From: Caballeronia turbans
GTDB taxonomy: Bacteria; Pseudomonadota; Gammaproteobacteria; Burkholderiales; Burkholderiaceae
Length of the DNA: 64,000 bases
Assembly (NCBI GenBank): GCA_001544655.2
Contig: FCOD02000026.1
Coordinates: forward strand, 18,473-82,472
Direction of reading: 5' to 3'
The translations under genes and the position numbers were made by a program. Numbering within the stretch: position 1 is the stretch's first letter; each line of letters begins with the position of its first letter. Shown here in pieces: positions 6,222 to 39,435 of the stretch. The notes beneath the pieces are model-generated. The model saw nothing but the letters and a program-made list of their open reading frames with translations, was not told the DNA's origin and ran no database searches.

Positions 6222-6259
6222 CGAATATCGATATCCGTTATGCGTTGCTCAAGTCGAGC

Positions 6260-13235: not shown

Positions 13236-13252
13236 GTGGTCCCCCCGGCAGG
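13236..13252. repeat. Left attachment core (attL side)
   Basis: Direct repeat of the tRNA-Arg 3' end, identical over 17 bases to 26243-26259. The bases to its right differ from the tRNA, as expected for the element side of the junction. Confidence 0.85.
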
Positions 13253-13369
13253 CTTCGATTGCCGAAATTCCGGGGAGTTTGTCCAAGCGACGCATGGCGC
13301 TGAAACCTAATCGTATCAAGCCTCCGCGCCCTAGAGCAAGTCACGCATCAAGGCTCCCGTCCCTATGCC

Positions 13370-13402
13370 TGTAGTACCTGCGGTAATTTGTTTGTAGTAC
13401 CC
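13370..13402. promoter_or_regulatory. Candidate integrase arm-type sites, left end
   Basis: Two direct copies of TGTAGTACC (13370-13378 and 13393-13401) about 120 bases inside the left core. The same word recurs at the right end (26164 and 26176), a pattern typical of tyrosine-integrase arm sites. Confidence 0.55.
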
Positions 13403-13481
13403 GAATTGCAGGGGCCGCCCTAGCTTCTGGGCCGTGCCTGCGCCCATTCGATGTGACAGGTAAGACTGTGCGGCCTCTGCA

Positions 13482-13949
13482 CTACCGCACCAAGAAAGTG
13501 CCATCAGGATCAGCGGCGAACCCCGCGCCTTCCAGGTGAATTAGTTGGACCTCGAGCAAGTACAGCGTTACGCCGCCGCCGAAGCCCCTATACGCTTCAG
13601 CCTTCCCGCTCACGCGCAAGATTGATCCGCTGCCTATATCCAGATCCTGAAGCACGTCCGTACCGATCAGGTTGGACCGCGCGTCATACACGTTTGGCCG
13701 TGTGTGGCTCCTGAACTTGAGGGTCACTGTTCCGTCCGCATTTTGAACGCTGGGCGTATGCAGGGTCTCGCCGTTTTGTAGTCCTAGCACGCTAGTCCCT
13801 TCCTTCCGGCATGCTTCGAATATCGGCGCAGCTTCAGCAGCGTTCAGCGTGAGGTCCACCCTGTAAGTACCCTTGGGATCGAACCTGGTATCGGGGGTCG
13901 CCAGGCAGACCACGCCTGCTATGCCTTTCGGCGTCTTGAACTGGATCAT
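13482..13949 (-). CDS. T7 gp2.5-like single-stranded DNA-binding protein
   Basis: 155 residues. From memory of T7 gp2.5, the order of features agrees: PDTRFDPKGTYRVDLTL early (T7 has PRGVYKVDLTI), NADGTVTLKF in the middle (T7 NGDGTTTFKF), a GSGSILRVSG strand, then GGVTLYLLEVQLIHLEG near the end. This is the OB-fold ssDNA-binding and annealing protein of T7-type phages. It lacks the long acidic C-terminal tail that T7 gp2.5 uses to contact polymerase and helicase: it ends in ADPDGTFLVR. Points outward toward the left junction, opposite to most element genes. Confidence 0.72.
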   Translation of the reverse strand: MIQFKTPKGIAGVVCLATPDTRFDPKGTYRVDLTLNAAEAAPIFEACRKEGTSVLGLQNGETLHTPSVQNADGTVTLKFRSHTRPNVYDARSNLIGTDVLQDLDIGSGSILRVSGKAEAYRGFGGGVTLYLLEVQLIHLEGAGFAADPDGTFLVR

Positions 13950-14322
13950 CGGTATCTCAGGACCTCACAGATAGTCGCGGAGAAAGGGAGCGCCTTCTGA
14001 CCAAAATGGTACAGCGGGGCGCGGCCCTACCGGGGGTCATCTCTTCGGAAAATGGCACCCCCTGTTTCTGCGAGATCCCGGGGGTGGAGGGGGTCTTTCC
14101 TTTCGAACTTTCCGAATTTCTGGCGGGCGACTCCCCTGCACAATCTGCAACAACAATAACAACGCGAGAGCCTTTACCGGCTTTTTTGAAGCACTCGAAA
14201 ATGTGGTATAGGGGGTACCTTGAAAAACCGGAACCGAGATAAATTCCGACGAAACACGCGCGGGCCACAACGCGCCGCCACGACAAAACCTCAGATACAA
14301 AACGAGAACGAAGGGGAAAGCA
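13950..14322. other. Intergenic region of the element
   Basis: 373 bases separating divergent genes, so promoters for both the ssDNA-binding protein and the rightward cluster should lie here. TATAGG at about 14212 preceded by a TTGAA-like box is a weak sigma-70 candidate for the rightward genes. A good ribosome site (GAAGGGGAAAG) precedes 14323. No coding frame is convincing. Confidence 0.4.
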
Positions 14323-14736
14323 ATGGGAGCAGCACGCGGGGGCAGTTTCGAACGGCGTGAGCCGACCTTGGGCCATACGGACCTCGCCACCTTCGCACGG
14401 CGCAGCGACGAGAGCACTATCCAGTCTGATGCCGTCTATCAGTGGCGACAGGACTTCGAGGAGCGGCGGCAGCTTGAGACCCGCGCAGCGTATGTCAAGC
14501 TCGGGCTTTGGCTCCTTGCGTGGTTCGGCATGGTGTACCTCTGCCAGCAAGGGGCGCAGGCGCTCCAGCCGCGCAACCCGGACAGTTTCATGTACTTCTT
14601 CGCGGCGATAGGAACCGCTGCGATGCTGCTCATCACCTTATGGCGAACGGTATGGCGGCTGATGTGGTGGTTCATCGGACTGTTGATGGTGCTTGCAGCC
14701 ATCAAGGGCGCGTTCCTGATCGTGTTCACCCGTTGA
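14323..14736 (+). CDS. Membrane protein with three predicted helices, unknown
   Basis: 137 residues. A charged soluble N terminus of about 60 residues is followed by hydrophobic segments LGLWLLAWFGMVYLC, FMYFFAAIGTAAMLLITLW and WWFIGLLMVLAAIKGAFLIVF. Strong ribosome site just upstream. The HEPN-like gene follows after 24 bases, so the two are probably expressed together. No family recognised. Confidence 0.65.
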   Translation: MGAARGGSFERREPTLGHTDLATFARRSDESTIQSDAVYQWRQDFEERRQLETRAAYVKLGLWLLAWFGMVYLCQQGAQALQPRNPDSFMYFFAAIGTAAMLLITLWRTVWRLMWWFIGLLMVLAAIKGAFLIVFTR

Positions 14737-14760
14737 GTTGCCCACGGACAGCCCACAATA

Positions 14761-15231
14761 ATGGCCGAAGAACCCCAATACTTGGAAACCTTGCGCAGCG
14801 AGCTTTGCCATGCACTTGGCGAGGCCGTGTGGGCATTTTCTATGATCGAACGTCTCACCTATCAGTACATGAAGGCGTTGTCTTCCGAACCATTGCACGA
14901 ACTGATGGCGGGCCAAGCCTTCAGTGCGCGTCTCAGGCTTATCACCCGATTAGTCGACCGGCTCCAAGGACAGGAAGCGGAGAAGGCATACGCCCTCAAG
15001 TATCTGAAACGTGCCGAGAAGTTGGCAAAGACGAGGAACACAGTAGCTCACAATCCTTGGCAGATTTGGGTCGATCTCGACGCTGAGCAATTCAGAAGCG
15101 CCATCCGCAGATTCGACGACGACGAGTCAGGCCTCAGCATAGCCGAAGTGCGCAGCTTTGCGGCGGACGCGCAGGAGGCTGCGTCTGGACTTGAGGTTGC
15201 CCTCGGAAATCTCCGATTCCCTGGCCCGTAG
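14761..15231 (+). CDS. HEPN-like helical protein
   Basis: 156 residues, all predicted helix. Contains TRNTVAHNPW, which fits the R-x4-H catalytic motif of HEPN ribonucleases (Arg92, His97) preceded by long helices as in that fold. HEPN proteins commonly serve in toxin-antitoxin or abortive-infection systems. It follows a membrane-protein gene by 24 bases. The family assignment rests on the motif and helix pattern only; a non-catalytic HEPN-like role is possible. Confidence 0.55.
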   Translation: MAEEPQYLETLRSELCHALGEAVWAFSMIERLTYQYMKALSSEPLHELMAGQAFSARLRLITRLVDRLQGQEAEKAYALKYLKRAEKLAKTRNTVAHNPWQIWVDLDAEQFRSAIRRFDDDESGLSIAEVRSFAADAQEAASGLEVALGNLRFPGP

Positions 15232-15366
15232 GCTGCCGTCCCTGTCTTGGCGATAGCGGCACGACCGGGTGTGAGGAACGGAGAACACACCGCGAACGGC
15301 TCAAGTTTTGCAATGCCCTGCCGTTTACGAGTCCGTAGCCCCTCAAGCCATCAACCATCGCACAAC

Positions 15367-15639
15367 ATGAAGAAAAATCTCATCATCCTCGCAGCATCCG
15401 CACTCGCCGCTTGTGGGGGGCCTCAAGTGACGTCAATTCAAGGGCCATCAGGCGGCACCGAGTATTTAGTAGATTGCGGTCACCACGGGTTCGATGGAGG
15501 CGACTGGGCGCAGTGCTACTCGGAGGCGGCGAAGGTCTGTCCGACGGGGTATGCGATCCGTGACAAGAACATGGAGGCCGGACCGGTCTTCGCCAATTCA
15601 GGTGCGAAACGCACCCTGCTGGTGGCGTGCAAAGGTTGA
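15367..15639 (+). CDS. Small lipoprotein
   Basis: 90 residues with a lipoprotein signal MKKNLIILAASALAACGG (lipobox LAAC). The mature part contains DCGHHGFDGGDWAQCYSEAAKVCPTGYAI, which with its paired cysteines resembles small outer-membrane lipoproteins of unknown function common in Burkholderiaceae. First of three closely spaced exported or membrane genes. Confidence 0.7.
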   Translation: MKKNLIILAASALAACGGPQVTSIQGPSGGTEYLVDCGHHGFDGGDWAQCYSEAAKVCPTGYAIRDKNMEAGPVFANSGAKRTLLVACKG

Positions 15640-15653
15640 ATGCAGCAACCGAA

Positions 15654-15812
15654 ATGAAAAATTGGTACAAGAGCATTACGCGCGGCCAGAAGATCTTCCT
15701 CTACGTGCTGTCGTCAGTGTTGGTACTGGTCTACGCCGTAGGACTCGTCCCGCTGCTTTTGCTGATCTACCTTGAACTCGGCAACTCGAGCAACTCCAAA
15801 GTGACTGAATAG
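15654..15812 (+). CDS. Small single-helix membrane protein
   Basis: 52 residues with one long hydrophobic helix (KIFLYVLSSVLVLVYAVGLV). ATG at 15654 is preferred; an upstream GTG at 15627 would overlap the lipoprotein end. Followed one base later by the next start. Function unknown. Confidence 0.5.
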   Translation: MKNWYKSITRGQKIFLYVLSSVLVLVYAVGLVPLLLLIYLELGNSSNSKVTE

Positions 15813-15813
15813 C

Positions 15814-16200
15814 ATGAAGCGCAGCATTCTCTGGCTGCTGGTGATGTCGACATCCAGCGTGTCCTTTGCGCAGACTACCCCTCTGCTACTCTTCGGCGGT
15901 CGTGACCATAATGTCTTCCTTGGATGCTTGAACTGCTCCCAGTACGACAGCAACTCCGTACAGAATGAGTACGGCTCGCACGGTTCCCCATACTCTTCCG
16001 AAAGCATTTTTAACCACTACAGCGACTATGGGTCGGCCTATTCGAGCGACAGTCCCTGTAACCACTACGCTGACAACCCACCGGTCATCGTTGACCAGAG
16101 CGGCGCGTTCTATGGACGGCTCACGTTGAATCAATATCATCCGCAAGCTAATAAAAACGAGCAACTCGCGGCATGGCTGGAGCGCGAAGTGTGCGATTAA
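15814..16200 (+). CDS. Secreted repeat-containing protein, unknown function
   Basis: 128 residues: signal peptide (cleavage near SVSFAQ), then FLGCLNCSQYDSNSVQNEYG and repeated SPYSSESIFNHYSDYGS / SAYSSDSPCNHYAD units, then PVIVDQSGAFYGRLTLN. This Cys-, Tyr- and Ser-rich pattern is a recurrent conserved hypothetical in proteobacteria, often carried as cargo on mobile elements. Starts directly after the small membrane gene. Confidence 0.7.
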   Translation: MKRSILWLLVMSTSSVSFAQTTPLLLFGGRDHNVFLGCLNCSQYDSNSVQNEYGSHGSPYSSESIFNHYSDYGSAYSSDSPCNHYADNPPVIVDQSGAFYGRLTLNQYHPQANKNEQLAAWLEREVCD

Positions 16201-16251
16201 AAGGAGCCGTTTCCTTTCCGCTGCTCCCATGAAGCGACGTCGCCGACAGCT

Positions 16252-16363
16252 TGTCAAAAGTAGTAAGTCCTGACAGCCCCTGTGGACACCATGCAACACC
16301 CCTGTCAAATGTCCTGTTGACGAATTACGACGATACTGTCATTATTCGATCCAACATATGACA
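16252..16363. promoter_or_regulatory. Candidate resolvase recombination site (res-like)
   Basis: Just before the serine recombinase are inverted-repeat units with TGTC...GACA ends: 16252-16275 (TGTCA...TGACA) and 16337-16363 (TGTCAT...ATGACA, 27 bases), plus a degenerate one at 16303-16321. Tn3-family res subsites have the same end words and similar lengths (from memory). A sigma-70-like pair TTGACG (16317) / CATTAT with 17 bases between overlaps the region, so the enzyme could repress its own gene. Confidence 0.5.
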
Positions 16364-16382
16364 AGGCCTGACGGGGGCAACC

Positions 16383-16970
16383 ATGGCACGTATCGCTTAC
16401 TACAGGGTCTCGACAAGAGACCAATCGATCGAATCCCAACGAGCCGCAATGGGCGGTGGATTTGACAAGGAATTCTCCGACCAGGGCATTAGTGGGACCG
16501 TTCTGGCCATGGACCGCCCTGGCTTCAAGTCTTGCGCCGACTACCTCCGCGAAGGCGACACCCTCCAGGTTTATGCGGTTGACCGCCTAGGCCGCGACTC
16601 CATCGACGTCCAGACCACTGTGCGCGACCTCCGCGCTAAGGGCGTGATCGTTGACGTCCACGGCCTTGGTCCGATCGTCGGAGACGCTGGCGAGCTAATC
16701 CTGGCCCTTCTCGCCCAAGTCGCGCAGATGGAGCGGAACCGGATCGCTTCCCGCACCGATGCCGGTCGCGAGCTTGCCAAGCAATCCCTTGCAGCCACTG
16801 GGAAGACCCACCGAGGCAAGGCGAGTCTTGGTCGACCGGTTCAGCATGATGCTGCCGCAATCGCCGCGTGGTCCTGGGAGAACGGCAGCATAACCAAGGC
16901 TGCGGAACATTTCGGCGTGAGCGAAGCGACCGTTAGCAGAGCACGCAGGGCTTTCCCCAAGGCCGCGTAA
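16383..16970 (+). CDS. Small serine recombinase (resolvase/invertase)
   Basis: 195 residues. N-terminal catalytic domain starts ARIAYYRVSTRDQSIESQ with the nucleophile at Ser10; the conserved VDRLGRDSID segment follows near residue 68-77, and a C-terminal Hin-like helix-turn-helix (SITKAAEHFGVSEATVSRARRAF). Length and order match resolvases and invertases, not large serine integrases. Likely role: resolving dimers of the element or inverting a segment; the res-like repeats upstream favour resolution. Confidence 0.9.
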   Translation: MARIAYYRVSTRDQSIESQRAAMGGGFDKEFSDQGISGTVLAMDRPGFKSCADYLREGDTLQVYAVDRLGRDSIDVQTTVRDLRAKGVIVDVHGLGPIVGDAGELILALLAQVAQMERNRIASRTDAGRELAKQSLAATGKTHRGKASLGRPVQHDAAAIAAWSWENGSITKAAEHFGVSEATVSRARRAFPKAA

Positions 16971-17099
16971 GGCCAGCAAGGGACCGCTAAGGCCTGGCGG
17001 ATCCTAAACAAACACTTCAGAAAAACGGCAGACAGCCGATAGCCAACCCAACACGCGCCGCCACGCCTCCGAGCGGTCGCCATACGAGGAAGCAGGGAA

Positions 17100-17255
17100 A
17101 TGCAAAACCAAGTACCGAAGGAGACCAGCAACAACGCGGTTGTGTACGTGATCGACCAGGGCAGCGGATGGGAGCAGAATGAAGACGTGGTCTGGGTCAT
17201 CGACGCGGGCAACGAGGCCGAATGGGAGAACCAGGTGCCGTACATCCTAAGCTGA
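17100..17255 (+). CDS. Small acidic protein, unknown
   Basis: 51 residues, with a ribosome site (GAGGAAGCAGGGAA) directly before the ATG. Contains two similar strands, NNAVVYVIDQGSGWEQNED and VVWVIDAGNEAEWENQ, suggesting a small beta hairpin repeat. Acidic overall. Lies between the recombinase and the promoter-like array; no family recognised. Small acidic phage proteins often act as inhibitors or DNA mimics, but nothing here proves that. Confidence 0.5.
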   Translation: MQNQVPKETSNNAVVYVIDQGSGWEQNEDVVWVIDAGNEAEWENQVPYILS

Positions 17256-17395
17256 CAGGCACCGAAGCACCCAGCCCTGCGCCGTCAACCATTAGGACTA
17301 GAAATAAATGGTTGCCGTGGTATCCGCGCGACACTTTTCGACGAGCGCAGGGAGAATCTTGACTTTCTTTGGGGTCGCTTGGGGCAAGGCCGCCG

Positions 17396-17422
17396 AATTA
17401 GTGCGCACGTAAGAAAGGGAGG
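17396..17422 (+). promoter_or_regulatory. SP6/T7-like phage promoter candidate 1
   Basis: AATTAGTGCGCACGTAAG followed by AAAGGGAGG. Aligns base for base with candidate 6 (20 of 27 identical). Upstream AT box, CGCAC recognition core, TA-rich melting box, then an A/G-rich initial transcribed region. Confidence 0.55.
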
Positions 17423-17427
17423 CCGTG

Positions 17428-17454
17428 AATTGGTCGACACTTAAAGAGAGACGG
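17428..17454 (+). promoter_or_regulatory. SP6/T7-like phage promoter candidate 2
   Basis: AATTGGTCGACACTTAAAG followed by AGAGACGG. Resembles the SP6 pattern GG-T-GACAC-TATAG with one inserted base. Confidence 0.55.
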
Positions 17455-17461
17455 CCTCGCG

Positions 17462-17484
17462 ATTTACCCACCCCTATAGAAGCA
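17462..17484 (+). promoter_or_regulatory. SP6/T7-like phage promoter candidate 3
   Basis: ATTTA, seven bases, then CTATAGAAG: the two ends and the spacing equal those of the SP6 promoter (ATTTAGGTGACACTATAG) although the middle differs. Confidence 0.6.
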
Positions 17485-17500
17485 ACACCCACGGATTCGG

Positions 17501-17528
17501 ATTAGTCGACACCCCTAGAGAAAGCAGG
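17501..17528 (+). promoter_or_regulatory. SP6/T7-like phage promoter candidate 4
   Basis: ATTAGTCGACACCCCTAG followed by AGAAAGCAGG. Shares GTCGACAC with candidates 2 and 6 and CACCCCTA with candidate 3. Confidence 0.5.
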
Positions 17529-17536
17529 GCAATCGG

Positions 17537-17560
17537 ATTTAGGCCGTACTATAGAAAGCA
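17537..17560 (+). promoter_or_regulatory. SP6/T7-like phage promoter candidate 5
   Basis: ATTTAGG, four bases, then ACTATAGAA: identical to the SP6 promoter except for four central bases. Best single match of the six. Confidence 0.65.
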
Positions 17561-17581
17561 CACCGCCTCCCAGGGCATCGC

Positions 17582-17607
17582 ATAAGTCGACACGTACGAA
17601 AGAAAGG
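17582..17607 (+). promoter_or_regulatory. SP6/T7-like phage promoter candidate 6
   Basis: ATAAGTCGACACGTACG followed by AAAGAAAGG. The copy nearest the zinc-finger and nuclease genes, 225 bases upstream. Confidence 0.55.
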
Positions 17608-17832
17608 CCGCTGTACAACACTACACCGCATAGCCCCACGCATCACCGCACCACCCTTCCGCAACACCGTTTTTGCCGTCCCCGGCCGCATCAGGCCACC
17701 AACCCCTTAGACGCACCTCGCCAGCCCGTTCTAGGCCCTCATAGAGACCTTGGCGGCAGCAGTCGCGCGCCCGCAACCAGCCCGCAACGCATCACCTTAT
17801 TTTTGCTGAAACTGACACGTTAAGGAATCCAA

Positions 17833-18123
17833 ATGAACACACCACAAACCACCAAGGAACAGCGATCCGCGTCACCCGCCTTCATCGTCCGCCCCTACGC
17901 TAAACGAGGGACCAAGACCGCCGCCCGTGAAGCGGCCCGCAAGGCCGGACAGAAGACGTTCCTATTCACCTGCAACGCCCACGGTCTCACCGTCTTTGGG
18001 ACCGCAGGGGGCGGCCATTGCCGCGAATGCACCGCAGCCCGGAAACGCGCCGCCTACGAGCGCCAGAAGCGAGCCGAGATGGAGGCCGCCTTGACCACGA
18101 ACCAAGGAGGCGGTCTGAAATGA
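17833..18123 (+). CDS. Small zinc-finger-like protein
   Basis: 96 residues, basic. A C-x2-H ... C-x2-C set (TCNAHGLTVFGTAGGGHCREC) suggests one zinc ribbon, followed by a charged helix (RKRAAYERQKRAEMEAA). The next gene has the same arrangement near its N terminus, so the two look related. The ATG of the nuclease gene overlaps this stop (ATGA), implying coupled translation. First gene after the promoter-like array. Confidence 0.6.
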   Translation: MNTPQTTKEQRSASPAFIVRPYAKRGTKTAAREAARKAGQKTFLFTCNAHGLTVFGTAGGGHCRECTAARKRAAYERQKRAEMEAALTTNQGGGLK

Positions 18124-18950
18124 CGACAAACGCACCTCTCAGCAAGTCCGCCATGGCCCGCGAGGCCCGAAAGCGCGGCGAACGATTCTTCCAAGCGCCC
18201 TGCGTGCGCCATGGAGAGCAGCCGCACTATGCCAGCACCCGTGCATGCTCGGTGTGCCAAGCGGACCGCAACGCGCCCAAGAACAGTGCTGCAGCCGAGC
18301 GATACCGCGATGATACGGAATACCGAGAGCATGTACGCGACACCGGCAACAAGGCGCGAAGGAAGCGCCGCGAAAACCCGGACTACCGAGAGGCCGAACG
18401 AGCATATGAGCGAGAGCGAGAAGCCAATCGAAAGACCGTCGATCCGGCATACGTGCGACACCTACGCGCAAAAGCGGTGAATGGGGGCGCGGTCCTTCGA
18501 ATGCGCAAGGGAAAAGAAGCCCGTCCCGATACCGCGATGCCGAGCAAGGAGACGCTACGCGAGTGCTACGAGTTCGCGCTACGCGCCCCCGAGGGCTGTG
18601 AACTCGACCATGGCTGCCCTTTGCGCGGCGTCCACCCCGTGACCGGAAAAGATACGGTTTGTGGTCTGCATGTTCCCTACAACCTTGAGCCAATGACGAA
18701 GAGGTCAAACACCATCAAGCGGCATTTCTTCGACCCCGAGAACCCCCTCGAATTCCAGAAGCCGTACAACTCCTTTCCAGGCGGTCAGTTCCACGGAGAC
18801 CACGCGGAGGACGAGTTCATGCGGTACACCACGCCGACCACGCTCCACATCATGACCATGGCGGAATTCAAGGAGGCCATTGTGGAAGGTGGTAACGCCG
18901 ACATGCACGAGTTCCTACTGCGACTTGCCGACGATGCCCCCGAACTCTAA
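18120..18950 (+). CDS. HNH-type endonuclease with N-terminal zinc ribbon
   Basis: 276 residues. A C-x2-H...C-x2-C ribbon (APCVRHGEQPHYASTRACSVC) and a long charged helical linker lead to an HNH-like core: CELDHGCPLRG, then VCGLHVPYNLEPMTKRSNTIK, which gives the DH, the central Asn and the N-x2-K typical of phage HNH and endonuclease-VII-like enzymes. Could nick or resolve phage DNA, or act in packaging. The overlapping ATGA start ties it to the preceding gene. Confidence 0.65.
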   Translation: MTTNAPLSKSAMAREARKRGERFFQAPCVRHGEQPHYASTRACSVCQADRNAPKNSAAAERYRDDTEYREHVRDTGNKARRKRRENPDYREAERAYEREREANRKTVDPAYVRHLRAKAVNGGAVLRMRKGKEARPDTAMPSKETLRECYEFALRAPEGCELDHGCPLRGVHPVTGKDTVCGLHVPYNLEPMTKRSNTIKRHFFDPENPLEFQKPYNSFPGGQFHGDHAEDEFMRYTTPTTLHIMTMAEFKEAIVEGGNADMHEFLLRLADDAPEL

Positions 18951-19080
18951 TAGAGCCTTCCGCGACTCCCTCGCAGTACCCAAAGTACTCGAAGTACCCG
19001 CAGCACCTCGCGAGCCTTCCCCGGCCCGCAACTTCCCCAGGGGTCTCCCGACCCTTCCCGCAGTTCCTTTCCCTACCATC

Positions 19081-20289
19081 ATGATCAAAACAATCTTCAA
19101 CATTTTCTTCCCGGCGCTCCGACTCGCCAAGGGCCTCAACGTAGCGGCAGCCGCAGTCGGTGCGGGCATCGGCGCAGTCGGCAGCGCCATCTCTGCAAGC
19201 AACGCCGCAGACGCCCAGAAGTCTGCAGCCGAGGCCGCTAACAGCCCTTGGTCCAAAGCGCAGCCCTACATCTCCGGGGAGTTCCAGGGTGCCCAGGATG
19301 CCCTCCACAACGGCCTCGGAATGGGGACGTATTCGGGCGAACGGGTTGCCGGTCTGAACCCCTACCAGACCCAGGGCGCCGACCAGACCGCAGCCTATGC
19401 AGATGGAAACGGCGTCAACACGGCCAACCACTTCTATAGCACCGGTATGGGCCTCACAGGCGCTGGCGCTGGCTTTGGCAGCAATGCCCAGGGTCTGTTA
19501 GCGCAGGCGCAGCAGGACCCGACCCAGGGGTTTCTAAGCTACGCAAACGGCCTGGCTAATAGCAGCATGGCGGATAACCTAATTACTGCGGCGAACCGCG
19601 ACGCCTCTAGGAGCCTGAACGAGTTGCAGCTTCCATCCCTGGCCGTCTCTGCGGCAGGCAACGGGAACATGGACTCGACCCGTACCGGTGTGACGCAAGC
19701 CATCCTGCAACGCAATGCGTCCGAGCAGATGGCAGACACCGCAGCGCAGATCCGTGGGCAGCTTTTCAACACCGGCCTACAGACCGCCCAGTCCCAGTAC
19801 AACGCAAACGCGGATCGCGCACTGAACGCCAATGGCCAGCTTGGCCAAGCCTTTGGCCTCGGTTCTTCAGCACTGCTAAACGGTCAACAAGCGAACGGCA
19901 ACAATTTCGACCAAATGACCGCAGCGGGGGGCCTCTATCAGACCCAGAACCAGAACCTAGACAACGCGGCCATGGCTCAGTTTAACGAGCAGCAGTCCAC
20001 GCCGCTCAACCTGTACGGCCAATACATGAACGTGATTAACGGCAAGTGGGGCGGTCAGCCGGTTAGCTCCGTGGGACCCTCTGTTGCCGGAAATTTCCTT
20101 CAAGGTGCCGCTGGCGGGGGCCTTACGGGCGCAGGACTCGCTAGCAAGCTCGGGGGCTACGGAGACAGCGGAGCTACGAGCTACGGCAACACCTTCACGA
20201 TGCCAGGCGGCACGGATTACGAATCGGCGGCGAGTTCGGCAGTCCAGATGCCTGCGGGCCTCAGCGCCTTCGGCTACGGCTACGAATAA
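19081..20289 (+). CDS. Podovirus internal-virion-like protein
   Basis: 402 residues from ATG 19081; the frame stays open back to 18880, but the extension is Pro-rich and overlaps the nuclease gene. The N terminus is hydrophobic and Gly/Ala-rich (AAAAVGAGIGAVGSAISASNA), followed by SPWSKAQPYISGEFQGAQDAL and VAGLNPYQTQGA, motifs I associate with podovirus internal or DNA-ejection proteins, then a long Gln/Asn/Ala-rich helical middle and a Gly-rich end. Assignment by composition and motif, not by search. Confidence 0.5.
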   Translation: MIKTIFNIFFPALRLAKGLNVAAAAVGAGIGAVGSAISASNAADAQKSAAEAANSPWSKAQPYISGEFQGAQDALHNGLGMGTYSGERVAGLNPYQTQGADQTAAYADGNGVNTANHFYSTGMGLTGAGAGFGSNAQGLLAQAQQDPTQGFLSYANGLANSSMADNLITAANRDASRSLNELQLPSLAVSAAGNGNMDSTRTGVTQAILQRNASEQMADTAAQIRGQLFNTGLQTAQSQYNANADRALNANGQLGQAFGLGSSALLNGQQANGNNFDQMTAAGGLYQTQNQNLDNAAMAQFNEQQSTPLNLYGQYMNVINGKWGGQPVSSVGPSVAGNFLQGAAGGGLTGAGLASKLGGYGDSGATSYGNTFTMPGGTDYESAASSAVQMPAGLSAFGYGYE

Positions 20290-20428
20290 GGCGACGCTCC
20301 CACGGCTAACCCGCTTTCCGGTACGGCCTTCCGCCCCTCCACCAAACCCATGAACACCAGGACGCGGCCCCATGCAGGCGCGAGGGATACCCGCGTCCAA
20401 CCTTCACTAACTTGAGAATCCAACAGCA

Positions 20429-21784
20429 ATGAACAATGACGGTTATTCGTTTGACATGCCTCCCGGCATTGATCCGCGTGACGACGGATCGCACAGCCTC
20501 CCCGCGTACCTTGGACAGGCCCTGCAGTTCTACGGCACCGACAAATCGACCCCGCTTCCGAGCTATCTAAGCTACCCGCTCAACAATCAACCCGGTCAGT
20601 CCATGTTCGGCGGTGGCGCTCCGCTGCAGACCCCGATGCAGCAGGCCATGGCCCCGCAGACGCCCGACACCGCTATCTCCCAAGCCATGGCCCCGCAACG
20701 GGCCGCGCCGACCGCGATCAGCAACGCGATGGCCCCAGCGCCCCTTACGCCGATCCAAGCGGCCTTTCAGAACCAAGCGACCAACCCCGACTTGGCGAAA
20801 GCTAACGCATTGATCGCCGCAGGGTCTGCGCTAATGGGCGGCAAGGACCTGCAGCAGGGCTTGGCCAACGCGGGCACTGCTTTCAGCAACACCTTCGACC
20901 AGACCCTGAACCAACAACGAGACCTGAACACGCCTCGAGTCGCCCCGCTGGGCCAGGATGGCGCGTTTTCTATGGTACAGATGCCAGGTCAGCAGCCGCA
21001 GGTTGTGTCGAACGACCAGGTCCAGAACTACGTCTTGGGCAAGGCACGGGCGCAGAAGGCATTCGAACTGCAGAACGACATTGCCAAGCAGACCATGGAG
21101 CAACAACGCGCTGCGGCCAAGCTCGACCAGACCAACAGTCAGCAGGCTGTGCCGGTCCTGACCAATCTCCAATCATCGCAGGCCGGTCTCAACGCGGCGC
21201 AGGCTGTCACAGACGCCCTCAAGAGCGATTCTGACCGCTCCCTGGCGCTCAAGGCCTATTCCGCGCTCAAGCCGACGCTTCAGCGCCTCGCGGCTGCTTC
21301 GGGCGTCCCAGCGATGGCGCAAGCCGCCTCGGACTACAACACCCTGAATAATGCCCGCATCGACGGCGCGAAGATGGAAGTGTCCGGTTTGAATGGCTCG
21401 CTGAGCAACGACGAGTGGACCCGTGCTGTTGGAGCAGTCCCGCATCCCTCGGACTCCCCTGAGGTCTGGGACAGCTACTACGAACGTGCGAACCCGCTGC
21501 TTACGAGCCGCGTGGGTTTCTATTCGGACGTCGTCAAGCGTGGCCAGGAAGCAGCGAACCGCGCTCTCAACCCGTACGGGCCTAACGACCGTCCTAACCT
21601 CGGTGCGCCCCAGGTGCCCCAAGCGGTCCAAGCACATCGAGCGCCCCAAGGATCCCAAGCCGCTCAATCGTCGGGTTCCGGATCGTATCAACCCGTGACC
21701 GTCGCGAGCTTCGCGGATGCAAACCGTCTGCCGTCTGGGACTGTCTTCCAAGCGCCTGATGGGTCGCTTAGGAAGAAGCCGTAA
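20429..21784 (+). CDS. Second internal-virion-like protein, Gln/Ala-rich
   Basis: 451 residues. The N-terminal third has repeats of the type QQAMAPQTPDTAISQAMAPQ / TAISNAMAPAPLTPIQ; the middle is a long helical Gln-rich region (QNDIAKQTMEQQRAAAKLDQ); the C terminus ends in SFADANRLPSGTVFQAPDGS, similar to small beta modules at the ends of phage structural proteins. Same strand as the preceding gene, 139 bases later. Function inferred from composition and context. Confidence 0.5.
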   Translation: MNNDGYSFDMPPGIDPRDDGSHSLPAYLGQALQFYGTDKSTPLPSYLSYPLNNQPGQSMFGGGAPLQTPMQQAMAPQTPDTAISQAMAPQRAAPTAISNAMAPAPLTPIQAAFQNQATNPDLAKANALIAAGSALMGGKDLQQGLANAGTAFSNTFDQTLNQQRDLNTPRVAPLGQDGAFSMVQMPGQQPQVVSNDQVQNYVLGKARAQKAFELQNDIAKQTMEQQRAAAKLDQTNSQQAVPVLTNLQSSQAGLNAAQAVTDALKSDSDRSLALKAYSALKPTLQRLAAASGVPAMAQAASDYNTLNNARIDGAKMEVSGLNGSLSNDEWTRAVGAVPHPSDSPEVWDSYYERANPLLTSRVGFYSDVVKRGQEAANRALNPYGPNDRPNLGAPQVPQAVQAHRAPQGSQAAQSSGSGSYQPVTVASFADANRLPSGTVFQAPDGSLRKKP

Positions 21785-22129
21785 CCCCAAGACCAGTAGG
21801 GTTCTAGGGTATGGCTTGGCCAGAGGGAGACCAAAAAAGGATCTCAGCGCCCTAGATCATGATCGATATAGGAGACCAATTATTGACCATCTCCGAAGAG
21901 ATCTATGGCGCTGCTCGGATTCTTTTCTTTGATTGATTAATCGGTCTTTCCTCTTAGTGGTCCCCTCCCCAAGCTGCACCTTAGGTCCCTTGGGTCCTCT
22001 TCCTCTGGTCTGGAAGAGGTTCGCCTATCGCCCTTGTTATTTATATAGGCGAAATCGCTGAGACCCTTTCCCCATAAGGGTTTGCGGTTTCGAATTCGGA
22101 TGTAAAACATCAAAAAATGAACCTGACGA
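21785..22129. other. AT-rich intergenic region with tandem hairpins
   Basis: 345 bases, clearly richer in A and T than the surroundings. Contains three consecutive inverted repeats (21996-22085) and two GGAGACCA words (21822, 21872) that resemble T7-class transcription starts only weakly. No gene seen. Confidence 0.5.
21996..22091. ncRNA. Structured RNA or terminator block: three hairpins in a row
   Basis: Hairpin 1: CCTCTTCC (21996-22003) with GGAAGAGG (22012-22019). Hairpin 2: TTCGCCTAT (22020-22028) with ATAGGCGAA (22045-22053). Hairpin 3: ACCCTT (22063-22068) with AAGGGT (22076-22081), extended by an outer GAAATCGC / GCGGTTTC arm that overlaps hairpin 2, so two alternative folds are possible. 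Could end transcription after the virion-like genes or form an RNA leader for 22130. Confidence 0.4.
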
Positions 22130-22732
22130 ATGAAGATCGACAATGAAGAAATCAGGGCTCTGGACTCCGTGGAAACCCCACAGAAGGAGCGCTATGAAGC
22201 CTTCGGGGGGACCTACAAAGTGGTACCGAAGGGACGCCTTCGTGCGGCAGGGTGGCGGGTGACGCGAAGCATGCGGCCCGTAATTTATCGCGCCCCCGAA
22301 ACGTGGTTAGACAACGAGACCGGGGAGATCCTGACTACGAGCGAGGCGAAGAAGCGCGGGATCAGGTTGCCGCTGGCCCGCTCCGCGTCCGAAAAGATGC
22401 TAGACCTGTGCGAGTGCGTGACATCTTGCCCAGCCAGCGAACGCCCTTTCGTGTCGTTCCTCCTGAAGATGCGCAATCATCGCGGCGGTCTTTTGGCTCC
22501 CTTGGAATCCCTGATTGACCAATGGATTGATTGCGAATGTCCCGGTATTCGGTCGACAAACAAGGCACGTAAGCGCAAACAACTTCGCGGCATCATTGAC
22601 CGACGCCGGTTGATGACAAACGATACGACTATGGCGAGAAACCTCATGTTGCTTAATCCAAACATGACGAAGCAGGACGTCATCGAGGAAGGAGCAAAGC
22701 GGTACAACCTGCGCGCTGCGCTGAGGCCTTGA
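22130..22732 (+). CDS. Unknown protein of the element
   Basis: 200 residues, basic and mostly helical toward the end (NKARKRKQLRGIIDRRRLMTNDTTMARNL). No recognisable motif. AT-rich upstream sequence and weak ribosome site; ATG at 22130 begins MKIDNEEIRALDS. The basic helical C terminus could bind nucleic acid. A role in element control is a guess. Confidence 0.5.
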   Translation: MKIDNEEIRALDSVETPQKERYEAFGGTYKVVPKGRLRAAGWRVTRSMRPVIYRAPETWLDNETGEILTTSEAKKRGIRLPLARSASEKMLDLCECVTSCPASERPFVSFLLKMRNHRGGLLAPLESLIDQWIDCECPGIRSTNKARKRKQLRGIIDRRRLMTNDTTMARNLMLLNPNMTKQDVIEEGAKRYNLRAALRP

Positions 22733-23055
22733 ACTGCACGAATCCTTGTTCGGCGTCGCCTGTTCGGCATCGCCTGTTCGGCGGCCGCCAGGACTCCCCG
22801 CAGCCCCTGCGAAGTGGAAGCAGGAAACAGACGACGCGGTCGAGCAACACATGCGTGAACTCAAGCCGCACGGGTCGATCACCCGCTTAAGCTTCGGAGG
22901 GGCGACGACCTGGCGAGGCTCGCTGCGTACCAGCCCGCGATGGCGGCGCGACTACCGGCACTTGCCAATGCGGATCCTAAGCGGCCGCACGTTCGTACCG
23001 CCTCCTATCGAAGGCCCGACGCGGCTACAATGTGATCCCTGTCGGAGAAAACAAA
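22733..23055. other. Noncoding region upstream of the DUF262 gene
   Basis: About 320 bases. Begins with a 14-base tandem repeat of TGTTCGGCRTCGCC (22747-22760, 22761-22774, partial third copy to 22782). GC content is higher than in the preceding spacer. An open frame crosses it but has host-unlike composition and no ribosome site. Presumably carries the promoter of the DUF262-HEPN pair. Confidence 0.45.
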
Positions 23056-24162
23056 ATGTCGAACGAACTTTTCCAGTCGGACGAGGAAGTGGAAGACCTT
23101 GACGAGGTCAACGAGGTCATTCCAACCGCATACACCATCACCTCCTACGGCGCGGACTACCCGGTCGACGGCCTCGTGAAACGTCTCGGGCAAGGCGATA
23201 TTGTCGTCCCGCTCTTCAACATGCCCCCGGGGCACGACCAACCCCTTGTTGGCTTCCAGCGCGAGTTCGTTTGGACGCGCCCGCAGTGCGATCGCTTTGT
23301 CGAATCCCTACTGCTTGGACTTCCTGTGCCGGGAATCTTCTTGGTGAAAGAGTCCAGCGGGAGGCTTCTTGTGTTGGACGGTCAGCAACGTCTGAGAACG
23401 CTTCAGTATTTTTATGGCGGGCTTATCCAAGGTAAGGAATTCTCCCTGGATAACGTACAGGATAAGTGGCGCGGACGGACATATAAAACGCTCGAGGTAG
23501 ATGACAGGCGACGGCTCGATGACAGCATCATTCACGCCACTATCGTGAGACAGGACGAGCCCTCCGATGACATGAGCAGCATCTACATGGTTTTTGAACG
23601 TCTGAACTCCGGAGGGACGTTTCTGCAGCCCCAGGAGATTCGGGTGGCGCTCTATCATGGAAAGTTAGCGACGCTACTAAGTTCGCTCAATGAAGGCGAG
23701 TCGTGGAGAGCGCTCTACGGAAAGAAAAGCGCACGCCTCAAGGATTTGGAACTGATTCTCCGTTTTTTCGCGCTGTTCTATCAGGCAAAGTCCTACAAAC
23801 GCCCGATGAAAGAATTTTTGAATCGTTACATGGCGTCCAACATGAACCTTCAGGCTGTAGGGGAAGACGCGCTTCGCTCGCTCTTTGAGACTACTGCGGC
23901 GGCCATTCGCCAGTTTATCGGAGTGCGTGCGTTCCGCCTGAAAGCTGCGATAAACGCGGCTGTGGCCGATTCGGTAATGGTTGGCGTTGCGCGTCGATTG
24001 GCTACCGGAGCGGTGGCGCATCCGGAAGATTTTAAGACCGCGTACGATACTTTGCTGCAAGACTCCGAGTTCTTGAAGGCGAGCGGTCGATCGACTGCAG
24101 ACGAGGAATTTGTTCGGCTGCGGCTTGAGCGCGCTACCAACGCTTTCGCGAAGGTCAGATGA
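23056..24162 (+). CDS. DUF262 (GmrS/ParB-like nuclease fold) protein
   Basis: 368 residues. Start at 23056 is set by the GGAG site 10 bases upstream. The DUF262 signature is complete: GFQREFVWT (residues 67-75), LLVLDGQQRLRTL (residues 104-116) and VFERLNSGGTFLQPQEIR (residues 179-196). The DGQQR motif is the ParB-like nucleotidase/nuclease core found in GmrSD-type restriction and other defence proteins. Its stop overlaps the start of the HEPN gene (ATGA), so the two form one translational unit. Probable anti-phage or toxin-antitoxin function (inference). Confidence 0.85.
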   Translation: MSNELFQSDEEVEDLDEVNEVIPTAYTITSYGADYPVDGLVKRLGQGDIVVPLFNMPPGHDQPLVGFQREFVWTRPQCDRFVESLLLGLPVPGIFLVKESSGRLLVLDGQQRLRTLQYFYGGLIQGKEFSLDNVQDKWRGRTYKTLEVDDRRRLDDSIIHATIVRQDEPSDDMSSIYMVFERLNSGGTFLQPQEIRVALYHGKLATLLSSLNEGESWRALYGKKSARLKDLELILRFFALFYQAKSYKRPMKEFLNRYMASNMNLQAVGEDALRSLFETTAAAIRQFIGVRAFRLKAAINAAVADSVMVGVARRLATGAVAHPEDFKTAYDTLLQDSEFLKASGRSTADEEFVRLRLERATNAFAKVR

Positions 24163-24653
24163 GCGGGCGCAGAGAGGTACACCGCCTCAGGAGTCGCATG
24201 GATGCGACTTTTTCACGCGCCCCCGATCCGACGTCTGATCCTGAATTTCAGGCCGACTTCGCCAAATACTTGTGCGTACTGGTTTCGGGGTACCTCGAAA
24301 GCGCCCTTTGCGCGTTGCTTCTCGGCTTTGCGCAGGCCCGGAGTTCTCGTGAGGTGGCGTCGTTCGTGGAGCGCCAACTCGGCCCCTGGACCAATCCGAA
24401 GGCTGAAAAGATCATCGACTTGTTCGGCTCCTTCAATCAAGACTGGCGCGACAACCTGGCCGCCTACCTTGTCGATCAGCGTAAAGACAGCGTTAATAGC
24501 TTGGTTGCTCTCCGGCACATCATTGCGCACGGCGAATCGGTCGGCACAAGCCTGTCGCAGATTAAATCGCACTACAAGGTTGCCAACGAAGTTATCGATC
24601 ATGTAGCCGATTTAGTGGACCCTCCGACCGGGGCCGGGGCACGTCGAGCATAG
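24159..24653 (+). CDS. HEPN protein paired with DUF262
   Basis: 164 residues, helical. Contains ALRHIIAHGES with the R-x4-H HEPN ribonuclease motif at Arg119 and His124. The N-terminal part DFAKYLCVLVSGYLESAL matches the HEPN groups (MAE_28990-like, RiboL-PSP-like) described beside DUF262 genes. Overlaps the DUF262 gene by four bases. Likely RNase effector, with DUF262 as sensor or partner (inference from family knowledge). Confidence 0.78.
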   Translation: MSGRREVHRLRSRMDATFSRAPDPTSDPEFQADFAKYLCVLVSGYLESALCALLLGFAQARSSREVASFVERQLGPWTNPKAEKIIDLFGSFNQDWRDNLAAYLVDQRKDSVNSLVALRHIIAHGESVGTSLSQIKSHYKVANEVIDHVADLVDPPTGAGARRA

Positions 24654-24715
24654 GTCAAGCAAATGGCTCGGGGGGATGCGGAACGTTACAGCAGCCGTCC
24701 GTAGGATCGACGGAG

Positions 24716-26152
24716 CTACGCATGCACCAGCGCGACCGCATTGGCCAGCCAATCGGCCAACTGCGCCAGGGGGTACCCTTCCCCATAGTTCGCGCCCATG
24801 CCTGGGGTCCTGTGGCCCGTTAGCTGATCCCGAGCGGAGTCCGGACAGCCGACCGCACGCAGCAAGTCCTCCATGCCATGGCGCAGCGAATGGTTACCGA
24901 GCTTGGTCCCGATGAGGCCCTCGCGAGTCCGGACCCACTGCACCAAAGAGGCACTGACGGAGTCCGCCTTGCACTCACTGTCGGTGGTGTACCTAGGGAA
25001 AAGGAAGGCCGAATGGTCCGCGAGCCGCAGCGCGGCCTTAGCCGCCTCCAGGGCCTTGGGCGTCAGCGGAACCTTCCGCGCAGATCCGAGGCCTGTTTTT
25101 AGTGACCGCCAGGGATGCTCCTTCAGGTCTAGATATGGCACGGCGACGCGAAGCTGCACGTCCGCAACCGCAAGGCCGACAATTTCCCCGAGCCGCGCTC
25201 CGGTCTCCGCGACCAAGGTCAGGATGCAGCGCAACTGATCCGGCCCGTGCTTCGCACTCCAAGCGTCCAGGGCGCGATGCAAATACCGGTACTGGTCGAC
25301 GGTGAACGTCTCGCGCTTGACTGCATCCTTACCGGCCTTGGGGATCTCAACCTGGGCGAATACGTTTGGGACGCTGAGTTCGTTCTCGCGAATCGCACGG
25401 GCGAATGCGGCCCTTACGTTGGTAAGGTATCGGCTGACGGTGGTGGTACTCACAGCCTTACCGTCCTTGCTATGCTTCCCGGCGAGAAGCCATTTCACGA
25501 ATTCGTTCACGTCCAGACGCTTCACGCTCTGCAAATCCCGGTCTTTCCCTGGGACCGGCGTGCGACTCTCGAGAAAGGCGAACAGATAACCGAACACCAT
25601 ACGGGCATCCTTCTCTGTCTCGGGTCGCGCCGCCACGTACTGCTCAAGGCAGTCCTCTAGCGTGAACCTTACCCGCCGCTGGACCATCTGGAAGGCCGCT
25701 GCTTGGACGGGCGTCAAATACCTGTCTAACTGCCGCCCTTCCGTAATGTCCTCGCTCTCCACTACAGCGCGGGGAAGCTGGTGCTCTAAGAAGGTGTGGA
25801 AATGGTCGACCGCCTCAGGCGTGTTCTCAGGGGCCGAAGGGTCTACGCCATTCCGGAGCAGTAACTCATGGGCCTCGCGGAGGACGCCTTCCCGCGTCGG
25901 GTTTCTCAATTGCGCCCAATCCCTGTCGGTCTGTTCGACCAACGCTGGGATTAGCTTGGCGGCCACCCGGGGATCCGTGGTCTGAAGAGAGACCACGTAG
26001 TGCACCTTACCCGCGTATTTGGAGCCAACGGGCAGGACCGGCTTAATGTCGTCCGGGACCCGACGCTTGAAAAATAGCAACGAGCCTTTCGACTTCTGCC
26101 AGGCGTATTTGAGCTTTACGGACACGATGGGAGACAGGTGCAATAAGGCCAT
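24716..26152 (-). CDS. Tyrosine site-specific integrase
   Basis: 478 residues from the ATG at 26152; an upstream TTG at 26224 would add 24 residues across the putative arm sites and is less likely. N-terminal SAM-like core-binding region, then catalytic motifs: TGARLGEI (Arg), NHSLRHGME (His-x-x-Arg) and LTGHRTPGMGANYGEGY (His and the Tyr nucleophile). Reads toward the element interior from beside the tRNA, the usual place for an integrase acting on a tRNA 3' end. Convergent with the DUF262-HEPN pair. Confidence 0.92.
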   Translation of the reverse strand: MALLHLSPIVSVKLKYAWQKSKGSLLFFKRRVPDDIKPVLPVGSKYAGKVHYVVSLQTTDPRVAAKLIPALVEQTDRDWAQLRNPTREGVLREAHELLLRNGVDPSAPENTPEAVDHFHTFLEHQLPRAVVESEDITEGRQLDRYLTPVQAAAFQMVQRRVRFTLEDCLEQYVAARPETEKDARMVFGYLFAFLESRTPVPGKDRDLQSVKRLDVNEFVKWLLAGKHSKDGKAVSTTTVSRYLTNVRAAFARAIRENELSVPNVFAQVEIPKAGKDAVKRETFTVDQYRYLHRALDAWSAKHGPDQLRCILTLVAETGARLGEIVGLAVADVQLRVAVPYLDLKEHPWRSLKTGLGSARKVPLTPKALEAAKAALRLADHSAFLFPRYTTDSECKADSVSASLVQWVRTREGLIGTKLGNHSLRHGMEDLLRAVGCPDSARDQLTGHRTPGMGANYGEGYPLAQLADWLANAVALVHA

Positions 26153-26163
26153 GGAGTAACGCT

Positions 26164-26185
26164 TGTAGTAGCGATTGTAGTACCC
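26164..26185. promoter_or_regulatory. Candidate integrase arm-type sites, right end
   Basis: TGTAGTAG (26164) and TGTAGTACCC (26176) in direct orientation between the integrase start and the right core, matching the words at the left end (13370, 13393). Confidence 0.5.
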
Positions 26186-26242
26186 ATGGGTCACCTTGAG
26201 AAGCCCGCCACGTAAGCCTGACAAGGCTCTGAGGGGTAGCGG

Positions 26243-26259
26243 GTGGTCCCCCCGGCAGG
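26243..26259. repeat. Right attachment core within tRNA-Arg
   Basis: Second copy of the 17-base repeat. It covers the CCA end, acceptor strand and first T-stem bases of the tRNA, so integration leaves the tRNA intact. Confidence 0.85.
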
Positions 26260-26318
26260 AATCGAACCTGCATCTAGCGCTTAGGAGGCACTCGTTCTAT
26301 CCATTGAACTACGGGGAG
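26244..26318 (-). tRNA. tRNA-Arg (anticodon CCT)
   Basis: 75 nt including an encoded CCA. On the minus strand it starts CTCCCCG, pairing with CGGGGGG (one G-T wobble); D arm GTTC...GAAC, anticodon loop CTCCTAA between AGTGC and GCGCT arms, T arm GCAGG-TTCGATT-CCTGC. Target site of the integrated element. Confidence 0.95.
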
Positions 26319-30060: not shown

Positions 30061-30075
30061 TTACCCGATAGCCAC

Positions 30076-30113
30076 GAAAAAACGGCGACCTCGTGAGAGT
30101 GTCGCCGTTTTTC
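30076..30113. terminator. Bidirectional terminator
   Basis: Perfect stem AAAAACGGCGAC / GTCGCCGTTTTT between the convergent dehydrogenase and TetR genes, with A/T runs on both sides. Confidence 0.9.
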
Positions 30114-30132
30114 GATGCGCGCGAAGAAAGGA

Positions 30133-30813: not shown

Positions 30814-30889
30814 TTTTCTGTCTGAGAACGGCGTTGAGAATCGATTCTAGCACGCGCTATTGACGCATCCTCGCCATAACAGGCGTTCA

Positions 30890-30911
30890 TTACGGAGGGC
30901 TTCACCTATAA
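30890..30911 (+). promoter_or_regulatory. Sigma-70-like promoter
   Basis: Consensus -10 TATAAT at 30906-30911 with a weak GTTCAT-type -35 about 16 bases upstream, in front of the gene at 30945. Confidence 0.5.
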
Positions 30912-30944
30912 TTTTTTTACCCCGCGGACAAATCGAAAATCCAC

Positions 30945-39309: not shown

Positions 39310-39417
39310 GGCAATACTCCCATTTTTTCGATTTTGGTCTGGCGCCCCGTTCGCCTTTGCGCGAGGCGGCTCTTCGATTACGTCCGCGCCCGTAGCACGC
39401 GGATCGTGAGCCTTCTG

Positions 39418-39435
39418 CCGCAACTTGCGTGCCGG
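39418..39435 (-). promoter_or_regulatory. Candidate sigma-54 promoter, BON gene
   Basis: Minus strand CGGCACGCAAGTTGCG: GGCACG and TTGC exact, GG-N10-GC spacing exact; 111 bases before the ATG. Confidence 0.65.

Follow-up and report, generated by a model that had tools for sequence, protein, structure and literature searches.

A putative satellite of T7-like phages in Caballeronia turbans with promoter-like repeats of several phage types in one array

What could switch on and carry a 13-kb integrated element that encodes neither a phage polymerase nor a particle of its own? The question is raised by a stretch of 64,000 nucleotides from Caballeronia turbans, the whole of which we call the window, where positions 13236–26265 hold such an element at a tRNA-Arg(CCT) gene. 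The element is discrete, has a family of relatives and lacks phage core genes. Promoters of mixed types stand in one array within it, a non-coding block is common to it and to phages, and its ejection genes are under purifying selection. Transcription by helper phages, excision, replication, packaging and interference are what we infer. Our best reading is a new family of satellites that several T7-like phages could help, and the element itself is probably an integrated satellite of Burkholderiaceae autographiviruses (T7/SP6-like) that could draw on several of them. The start signals of several types, together with a DNA site common to phages, suggest that the element could be switched on and carried by viruses of different kinds.

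A discrete element and its relatives

The source genome (7.35 Mb in 120 contigs) was compared with a genus group of 58 genomes. The element is a clean insertion of 13,007 bp, bounded by 23-nt direct repeats (att sites) at 13236–13258 and 26243–26265. The two copies are 91% identical over 23 nt, with the first 17 nt exact, and the right copy lies at the 3′ end of the target gene, called as tRNA-Arg(CCT) at 26244–26318 on the minus strand. Relatives preserve the empty site. In two other genus genomes (L170 and L171) the left and right flanks of the window adjoin, overlapping in the repeat, and at five loci (L174, L176, L177, L184 and L185) both flanks lie beside a single tRNA-Arg(CCT), at most about 0.6 kb apart. 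This comparison covered 19 loci, and tRNA-Arg(CCT) was detected in 11 of 16. Within the element the GC fraction per kilobase is 0.55–0.63, against 0.64–0.66 in the nearest flanks.

A tyrosine integrase with a DUF6538 domain is encoded at the right end (24716–26224, minus strand; Pfam 1.8e-11, PHROG 1.7e-32) and is 80–87% identical in the related elements L072 and L073. Two TGTAGTACC repeats stand near the left end (13370–13401) and a third copy near the right end (26176–26184), as read by eye; similar repeats occur near both ends of L073, and all may be integrase arm sites. A phage satellite is expected to be a discrete integrated element with att repeats and an integrase, and this element is one. 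The att repeat at a tRNA-Arg gene and the integrase, both named in an earlier note made from the letters of the window, are thus borne out.

Eight further elements (L072, L073, L074, L075, L076, L078, L079 and L155) carry a resolvase and then an HNH gene in the same order as the window. The serine resolvase/invertase of the window element (16383–16970, plus strand; Pfam Resolvase 2.6e-27) is conserved in the family, being 66–96% identical in L072, L073, L079 and L155, and was found in 9 of the 58 genus genomes at 1e-20, own genome included. Its HNH protein (18120–18950, plus strand) belongs to the endonuclease VII group; its own match is weak (PHROG 0.0043, no Pfam match), but the homologue in L073 reaches 1.2e-9 for that family, so that the nuclease of the earlier note stands. 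The HNH match is weak in L075, L076 and L078 (28–30%) and weakest in L155 (42 residues, 1.4e-4). With at most six candidates scored per genome, the HNH query had matches at E 0.001 in 17 of 398 family genomes, and a profile built from four HNH rows had matches at 1e-12 in 6 of 398 (own genome included). We left uncounted L077, a 3.1-kb fragment, and L080, L081 and L156–L163, where one of the two genes is absent from the stretch fetched.

Both ends were found in five of the eight further elements, which measure 8–11 kb. Between repeats the lengths are 13.0 kb in the window, 9.9 in L072 (whose second repeat sits in L164), 8.2 in L073, 10.5 in L155, 9.9 in L074 and 11.2 in L076; the ends of L075, L078 and L079 were placed by eye. 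L072 and L073 occupy the same tRNA-Arg, L076 a tRNA-Ala (87-bp repeat), and L155 (88-bp repeat) and L074 (132-bp repeat) lie elsewhere.

None of these elements carries the machinery of a phage. Family scans (Pfam, PHROGs) covered 15 open reading frames (ORFs) of the window element, other small or overlapping ORFs lying outside the scan. For the family, tblastn was run with 1,043 ORFs of at least 60 aa, from all frames of four phage contigs, against the nine elements (ten sequence pieces); these queries should include the capsid genes, though capsid genes were not named individually. RNA polymerase (RNAP), DNA polymerase, helicase, portal and terminase were found in the window element by neither approach, and tblastn found none of them in any of the nine elements. 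What it did find was integrases, HNH, a small protein (in L079 and L155) and, in the window element, a single-stranded-DNA-binding protein (SSB) and the ejection pair described below. The earlier note had listed most of these absences, and had named related elements with capsid, terminase or RNAP genes as a sign of simple prophage decay; the eight relatives are without phage RNAP, terminase, portal or other core genes. A second mark of a satellite is the absence of genes for a particle of its own (capsid, portal, terminase), and this the window element shows, though it does have two phage-derived proteins, one of them an internal virion protein by family.

The SSB (13482–13949, minus strand) confirms the gp2.5-like protein of that note, matching phrog_112 at 3.2e-16, although Pfam SBB_T7 gave just 0.0024, below the family cut-off. 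It is 39–42% identical to ORFs of four phages, one of which is itself a phrog_112 member.

Promoter types, the common block and candidate helpers

We defined promoter types from de novo repeat searches in phages and a tally with one seed per phage. Phage promoters are 22–29 nt long and cluster around the RNAP gene; in the best-covered phages two copies lie upstream pointing away, another precedes the RNAP gene, and one or two more follow. Nine types, T1–T9, have three to six copies each, and T10–T15, from a second phage clade, two or three each. When nine phages are scored against nine types, each comes out highest for its own, and phage sites are of their own type only, except for one borderline site in L091 that reaches 20.5 for T3. 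Promoters of one type can nevertheless score for another: up to 24.6–25.8 between T1 and T2, 26.9–29.0 between T4 and T5, and 20.8–21.3 among T3, T4 and T8.

The specificity loop sets promoter choice in T7 RNAP. The RNAPs of seven types are 74–86% identical overall, and the more alike two specificity loops are, the more alike are the upstream halves of their promoters (r 0.89; as high in 12 of 5,040 label permutations). Whole-RNAP identity is a poor guide to this half (r 0.24; 528 of 5,040). T3, T4 and T8 have loops 92% identical and a common upstream half, and their downstream halves differ. The loops vary independently of the remaining polymerase, as if swapped among related phages with their promoter sets. 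Natural sets of promoter and polymerase types are thereby available, and it would seem that these phages alter the loop separately from the remainder of the enzyme.

The array of the window element spans 17396–17602, and all its matched sites are on the strand leading to the HNH gene. Scores are in bits, and the control was 190,400 bp of DNA on both strands. R0 (17396–17417, plus strand, as are all the repeats) scores 31.6 for T5, with a control best of 13.5 and 26.9 for the best promoter of another type. R4 (17537–17558) scores 32.0 and 30.0 for T2 and T1 (control best 12.1 and 14.5; best other-type promoters 25.8 and 24.6). R5 (17581–17602) scores 30.7 for T4 (control best 18.8; best other-type promoter 29.0) and just 17.5 for T5, the type of that other promoter. 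R1 (17428–17451), nearest to T8 at 21.6 (control best 13.1; best other-type promoter 21.3), and R3 (17500–17525), nearest to T7 at 17.2 (15.3 and 17.0), are placed at group level only. R2 (17462–17486) is a promoter-like repeat with no sampled phage of matching type, and a similar repeat occurs in the L073 array.

For one type or another, five of the six repeats outscore everything in the control DNA, and three can be assigned to a type: R0, R4 and R5, like S6 and S7 of L073, score higher than any promoter of a different type. For their own types, the first three lead the next group by 9 to 16 bits (R0 31.6 against 22.5; R5 30.7 against 17.5; R4 30–32 against 15.7). By its sequence, then, the array appears to hold R0 and R4 clearly, and R5 well enough, as promoters of distinct types. 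Shuffling each array 300 times gave at most one site scoring at least 17, against five observed in the window and six in L073; at a score of at least 15 there are five and seven sites. No position of the control DNA reaches 20 for T1–T9. At that score the best types number four in the window element and three in L073, so that neither array has a single promoter type. In the host genome the 17-nt core of R5 is found exactly only in the array itself, the nearest other site differing at two positions. No IMG/VR contig turned up in exact scans for R3 and R1, and T10–T15 gave no strong match in the window. The SP6/T7-like promoter array of the earlier note is therefore upheld in part: autographivirus-type promoters stand far beyond control DNA and shuffles, but they are several types in tandem, not one SP6-type promoter repeated. 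We read the array as predicted autographivirus promoters of more than one phage type.

Among the relatives, L073 has its own array, with T3 at 33.8 and T8 at 33.1, both far above other-type promoters, T1 at 25.5 (other types 24.6) and T9 at 17.3 (other types 9.7; control 16.7). In L072 a single site is strong (T4, 31.6). L079 and L074 show promoter-like series to the eye, none of them reaching 20 for T1–T9, and the near matches of L079 are at control level (T11 16.7 against a control best of 15.2; T15 15.5 against 16.4). At L079:11050–11850 the promoter-like repeats have a recurring spacer and types unmatched to the sampled phages.

The second cis feature is a non-coding block at 14122–14218 (plus strand; core 14149–14218), common to autographiviruses and found at 76–91% identity in a word-7 search of the element against phage DNA. 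Beyond the ejection genes that search returned mainly this block; its other matches were R0, R5, a stretch of the integrase and a marginal one of 28 nt. When two elements and nine phages are aligned, the conserved parts are an AAC-repeat stretch, CTTTACCGG, a run of T followed by AA, and GGGGGTAC; within CTTTACCGG, TTTACCGG is invariant in every sequence. The block occurs once per contig in four phage contigs of 43–47 kb, and the RNAP core of four block-bearing phages is only 55–57% identical. On the phage maps as read, it sits in an interval with the early/replication arm on one side and the structural arm on the other, and in G063 an endonuclease-VII-type HNH gene (31018–31530) stands beside it. 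A looser pattern found the block in 4 of 10 further phage records and a control pattern in none. Six of the nine elements have it: the window, L072 (two copies), L073, L075, L079 (a variant, by eye) and L155. Across the 58 genus genomes the exact core pattern gave three matches, which are the window element, the L155 element and an autographivirus contig of C. temeraria, and its reversed control gave one. The phage isolates gave no match to the block.

Phages of every promoter type considered share the block, and for that reason we lean toward a role in packaging, with an origin of replication as the main alternative. A simple terminator was considered and set aside, the small hairpin of the window copy not being kept in all phages. 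Directly after the last promoter, the window element has a TGTACAACA motif (17612–17620, plus strand), as does L072 (L072:15618), once in each. Phages have 4–8 copies, five other elements counted and 50.5 kb of window flanks have none, and 120 kb of other loci have two. Promoters and a common block are cis sites that tie the element to helpers, as in a satellite.

Two proteins had been likened to podovirus internal virion proteins in the earlier note. The 19081–20289 gene (plus strand) encodes a DNA ejection (internal virion) protein (phrog_4287, 1.2e-22), with homologues 69–81% identical in the best segment at 27 IMG/VR loci, the C. temeraria contig among them (LMG 29319 contig 46, 26606–27817 of 47,351). 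The 20429–21784 product (plus strand) has no convincing family match (Pfam, PHROGs), but its homologue follows the ejection homologue at 25 of the 27 loci, the other two ending inside the ejection gene; it is a second phage-derived, probably virion, protein. Its predicted model is poor (pLDDT, the model's own confidence score, 58.5) and unfit for a fold search. Against five phage homologues the ejection gene has dN of about 0.16–0.19 and dS of about 1.2–1.7, near saturation, with dN/dS of about 0.09–0.16; for the 20429 gene against four phage homologues, dN is 0.23–0.48 and dS 1.2–1.6. Both genes are open, and by dN/dS both are subject to purifying selection, much of which may have acted while they belonged to phages. 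Among isolate phage records the ejection protein has two weak matches only and the 20429 protein none. The pair is cargo and not core, since one element of nine carries it.

What kind of phage would the helpers be? A single-subunit RNAP was found in 8 of 10 phage records searched. Taken together, ten ORFs each from G064 and the C. temeraria contig include RNAP, DNA polymerase, primase/helicase, SSB, portal, terminase, tail proteins, a large internal virion protein and integrases. These phages are far from cultured ones: none of the 2,578 records matched in the isolate collection has an RNAP as much as 60% identical, and for the C. temeraria RNAP the best among the matches listed is 33.0% over 98% of the query. 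That contig (L043) ends in two tRNA-Leu genes beside an integrase and is apparently an autographivirus prophage integrated at tRNA-Leu. All four helper-type contigs examined (43–47 kb) carry integrase-like ORFs, so the helpers are probably temperate; virulent helpers, considered at one stage, were dropped on the same ground. The L043 prophage (noted at 5632–6978 and 7031–7352) has an integrase 46% identical to that of the element. As a whole the element had no nucleotide match in 50,697 phage records, an HNH scan of IMG/VR found no relative, and the sole match in a plasmid search was a recombinase in Polaromonas.

Mechanism, rival explanations and known satellites

In the mechanism we propose, an infecting or induced helper makes its own single-subunit RNAP. 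The promoters would stand in tandem because helper polymerases differ in specificity, and any of several helpers could thereby transcribe the rightward operon of a small protein, the endonuclease-VII-type HNH and, here, the two ejection proteins. That a helper RNAP transcribes this HNH operon is likely, and it is the step in which we place most confidence. Tandem promoters serve as an RNAP-primed origin in T7, and the array may likewise double as a replication origin primed by the helper RNAP. The integrase would excise the element, and the resolvase may resolve multimers. The helper terminase would take up satellite DNA via the block at 14122–14218, one copy of which may suffice because helpers of different promoter types need not differ in terminase. 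The ejection proteins would be built into particles, where they could favour delivery of satellite DNA or spoil helper virions. It is an even bet whether the family is polyvalent in the full sense, widening its helper range by collecting promoters for differing T7-like RNAPs in one array, next to one common packaging site. If so, the element DNA may itself name the helpers, each repeat predicting an RNAP type, and the promoter set of each element would be a readable list of usable phages.

Could one helper with an RNAP tolerant of a wide promoter range account for the array, its repeats being degenerate copies of one promoter? R1, R3 and R5 have the same upstream half, the T3, T4 and T8 loops are nearly alike, R1 and R3 are not type-specific, and no repeat attains the lowest score of its own type. 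These points would fit such an account, yet each phage keeps its own type nearly invariant, the own-type scores of R0, R4 and R5 stand well clear of the next group, and L073 has a different set (T3, T8 and T1); we think the account improbable. A phage-triggered defence island is an unlikely reading too. In it, helper RNAPs would switch on the HNH, decoy ejection proteins and perhaps the DUF262/HEPN genes, with no travel in helper particles. The NsnA/PD-T4-2_A and HEPN matches in the window element and AbiJ in L073 speak for it, and decoy ejection proteins could poison virions; but the common non-coding block, integrase, resolvase and SSB point to mobility, and the DUF262/HEPN genes lie beyond the 22130–22732 gene and two gaps and so are not clearly in the array operon. 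It is very hard to see the element as a decayed temperate autographivirus prophage. SSB, ejection pair, distant integrase and HNH are all phage-related, but relatives with this layout, which occupy several sites, have no virion genes, none of nine phages showed an array of mixed types, the named genes are ORFs, and a single-subunit RNAP gene occurs neither in the element nor, by profile search, in the host genome.

Several findings weigh against the satellite reading itself, for which all the evidence is of one kind, the analysis of sequence. None of the array repeats reaches the minimum of real promoters of its own type (R4 32.0 against 32.2; R5 30.7 against 33.5; R0 31.6 against 34.6), so all must be taken as variants. 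Promoters of other types score about as well as R1 and R3 do, R5 is ahead of them by a small margin in its T4 score, and R2 lacks a sampled phage. Fewer specificities than types may exist, because the loops and upstream halves of T3, T4 and T8 are near-identical and the T1/T2, T4/T5 and T3/T8 models cross-match. No array is recognisable by eye in L155, L076 or L078. The block patterns find nothing in L074, L076 or L078, the exact core pattern misses the variants of L072, L073 and L079, 6 of 10 further phage records are without the block, and to call it a packaging site is a guess. The ejection pair is confined to the window element. Finally, the RNAP model that detected the enzyme in 8 of 10 phage records gave no match in the host genome, nor in control genomes, and this strain thus has no helper linked to it. 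We nonetheless favour a satellite with several possible helpers. The earlier note had supposed that an infecting T7-like phage may transcribe the element and either package it or suffer from it; its view of the element as a satellite is supported, and the tests it named as able to overturn that view, so far as they could be run, did not do so. New beside it are the mixed array, the family of relatives and the common block.

How does such a satellite compare with known ones? Phage-inducible chromosomal islands (PICIs) are marked by an AlpA-type activator, a divergent repressor and a primase/replication module, and are induced when a phage protein removes the repressor. P4-like satellites have psu, delta, sid and an alpha primase-helicase. 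Neither PICI hallmark genes nor P4 genes occur among the 15 window ORFs by Pfam and PHROGs, where several ORFs have no match at all and distant forms are possible. Induction by repressor removal in PICIs would contrast with the phage-RNAP promoters that we suppose here. The element resembles PICIs, including the Staphylococcus aureus pathogenicity islands (SaPIs), in its integrase and defence cargo, and the title of one cited reference ties a SaPI HNH to cos packaging (in PMC10803314). P4 can use at least five P2-like phages as helpers, according to a review (PMC11389934), and so shares with this element a possible use of several helpers; in the element such breadth would rest on the promoter array. 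In the passages seen, the same review treats helper matching and helper range of phage satellites as unsettled (PMC11389934).

The phage-inducible chromosomal minimalist islands (PICMIs) of Vibrionaceae are described, in the passages available to us, as lying next to fis, with three core proteins and no cos or pac site found (PMC10803314). Like them, the element is a small integrated satellite with a defence gene and no capsid-remodelling genes; it is not a PICMI, lying at tRNA-Arg(CCT) in Caballeronia and not next to fis in Vibrionaceae, and those passages make no mention of phage-RNAP promoters in the satellite (PMC10803314). With autographiviruses of Burkholderiaceae (uncultured ones in IMG/VR and the C. 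temeraria contig) the element has promoters, block, ejection pair and SSB in common. These phages differ in being 43–47-kb contigs with an RNAP and, in one or other of those scanned, DNA polymerase, primase/helicase, portal and terminase, and in having one promoter type per phage. Among the matches listed in open PMC papers, titles and the starts of abstracts gave no earlier account of an autographivirus satellite or of a satellite activated through phage-RNAP promoters.

Remaining genes and minor observations

The other genes of the element are on the plus strand. A small conserved protein (14323–14736), 79% identical in L073, has no family match (Pfam, PHROGs). It is followed by a protein with a very weak HEPN_AbiU2 match (14761–15231; E 0.079), a short protein that seems lipoprotein-like from its signal-like start (15367–15639; phrog_5685, no assigned function, 6.5e-4) and an ORF without a Pfam or PHROGs match (15814–16200). 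Between resolvase and HNH lie a small ORF (17100–17255), 73% identical over 48 residues in L072, and the small protein that precedes HNH (17833–18123), with relatives in several elements; neither has a family match. The 22130–22732 protein has no assigned function and has relatives in 13 of 398 family genomes (own genome included), and a search with its predicted fold gave no significant match.

Next come a GmrSD_N/DUF262 protein (23056–24162), whose best PADLOC models are NsnA and PD-T4-2_A, and a RiboL-PSP-type HEPN protein (24159–24653; Pfam 1.8e-14) that overlaps it and had no match in PADLOC. To judge by these matches, the pair is defence cargo. In L073 an AbiJ_NTD4/DUF7014 protein (13951–14871 of that locus) appears as defence cargo as well. 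A further small lipoprotein-like protein (L155:5808–6086; L079:12658–12870) is common to two elements and four phages. It had been labelled excisionase-like, a label since withdrawn, the only matches being weak Cor-like and lipoprotein ones; one phage copy has a weak match to Cor-like superinfection exclusion (E 0.006). Outside the element, GC dips twice more in the window, at 30001–31000 (0.586) and 39001–40000 (0.592).

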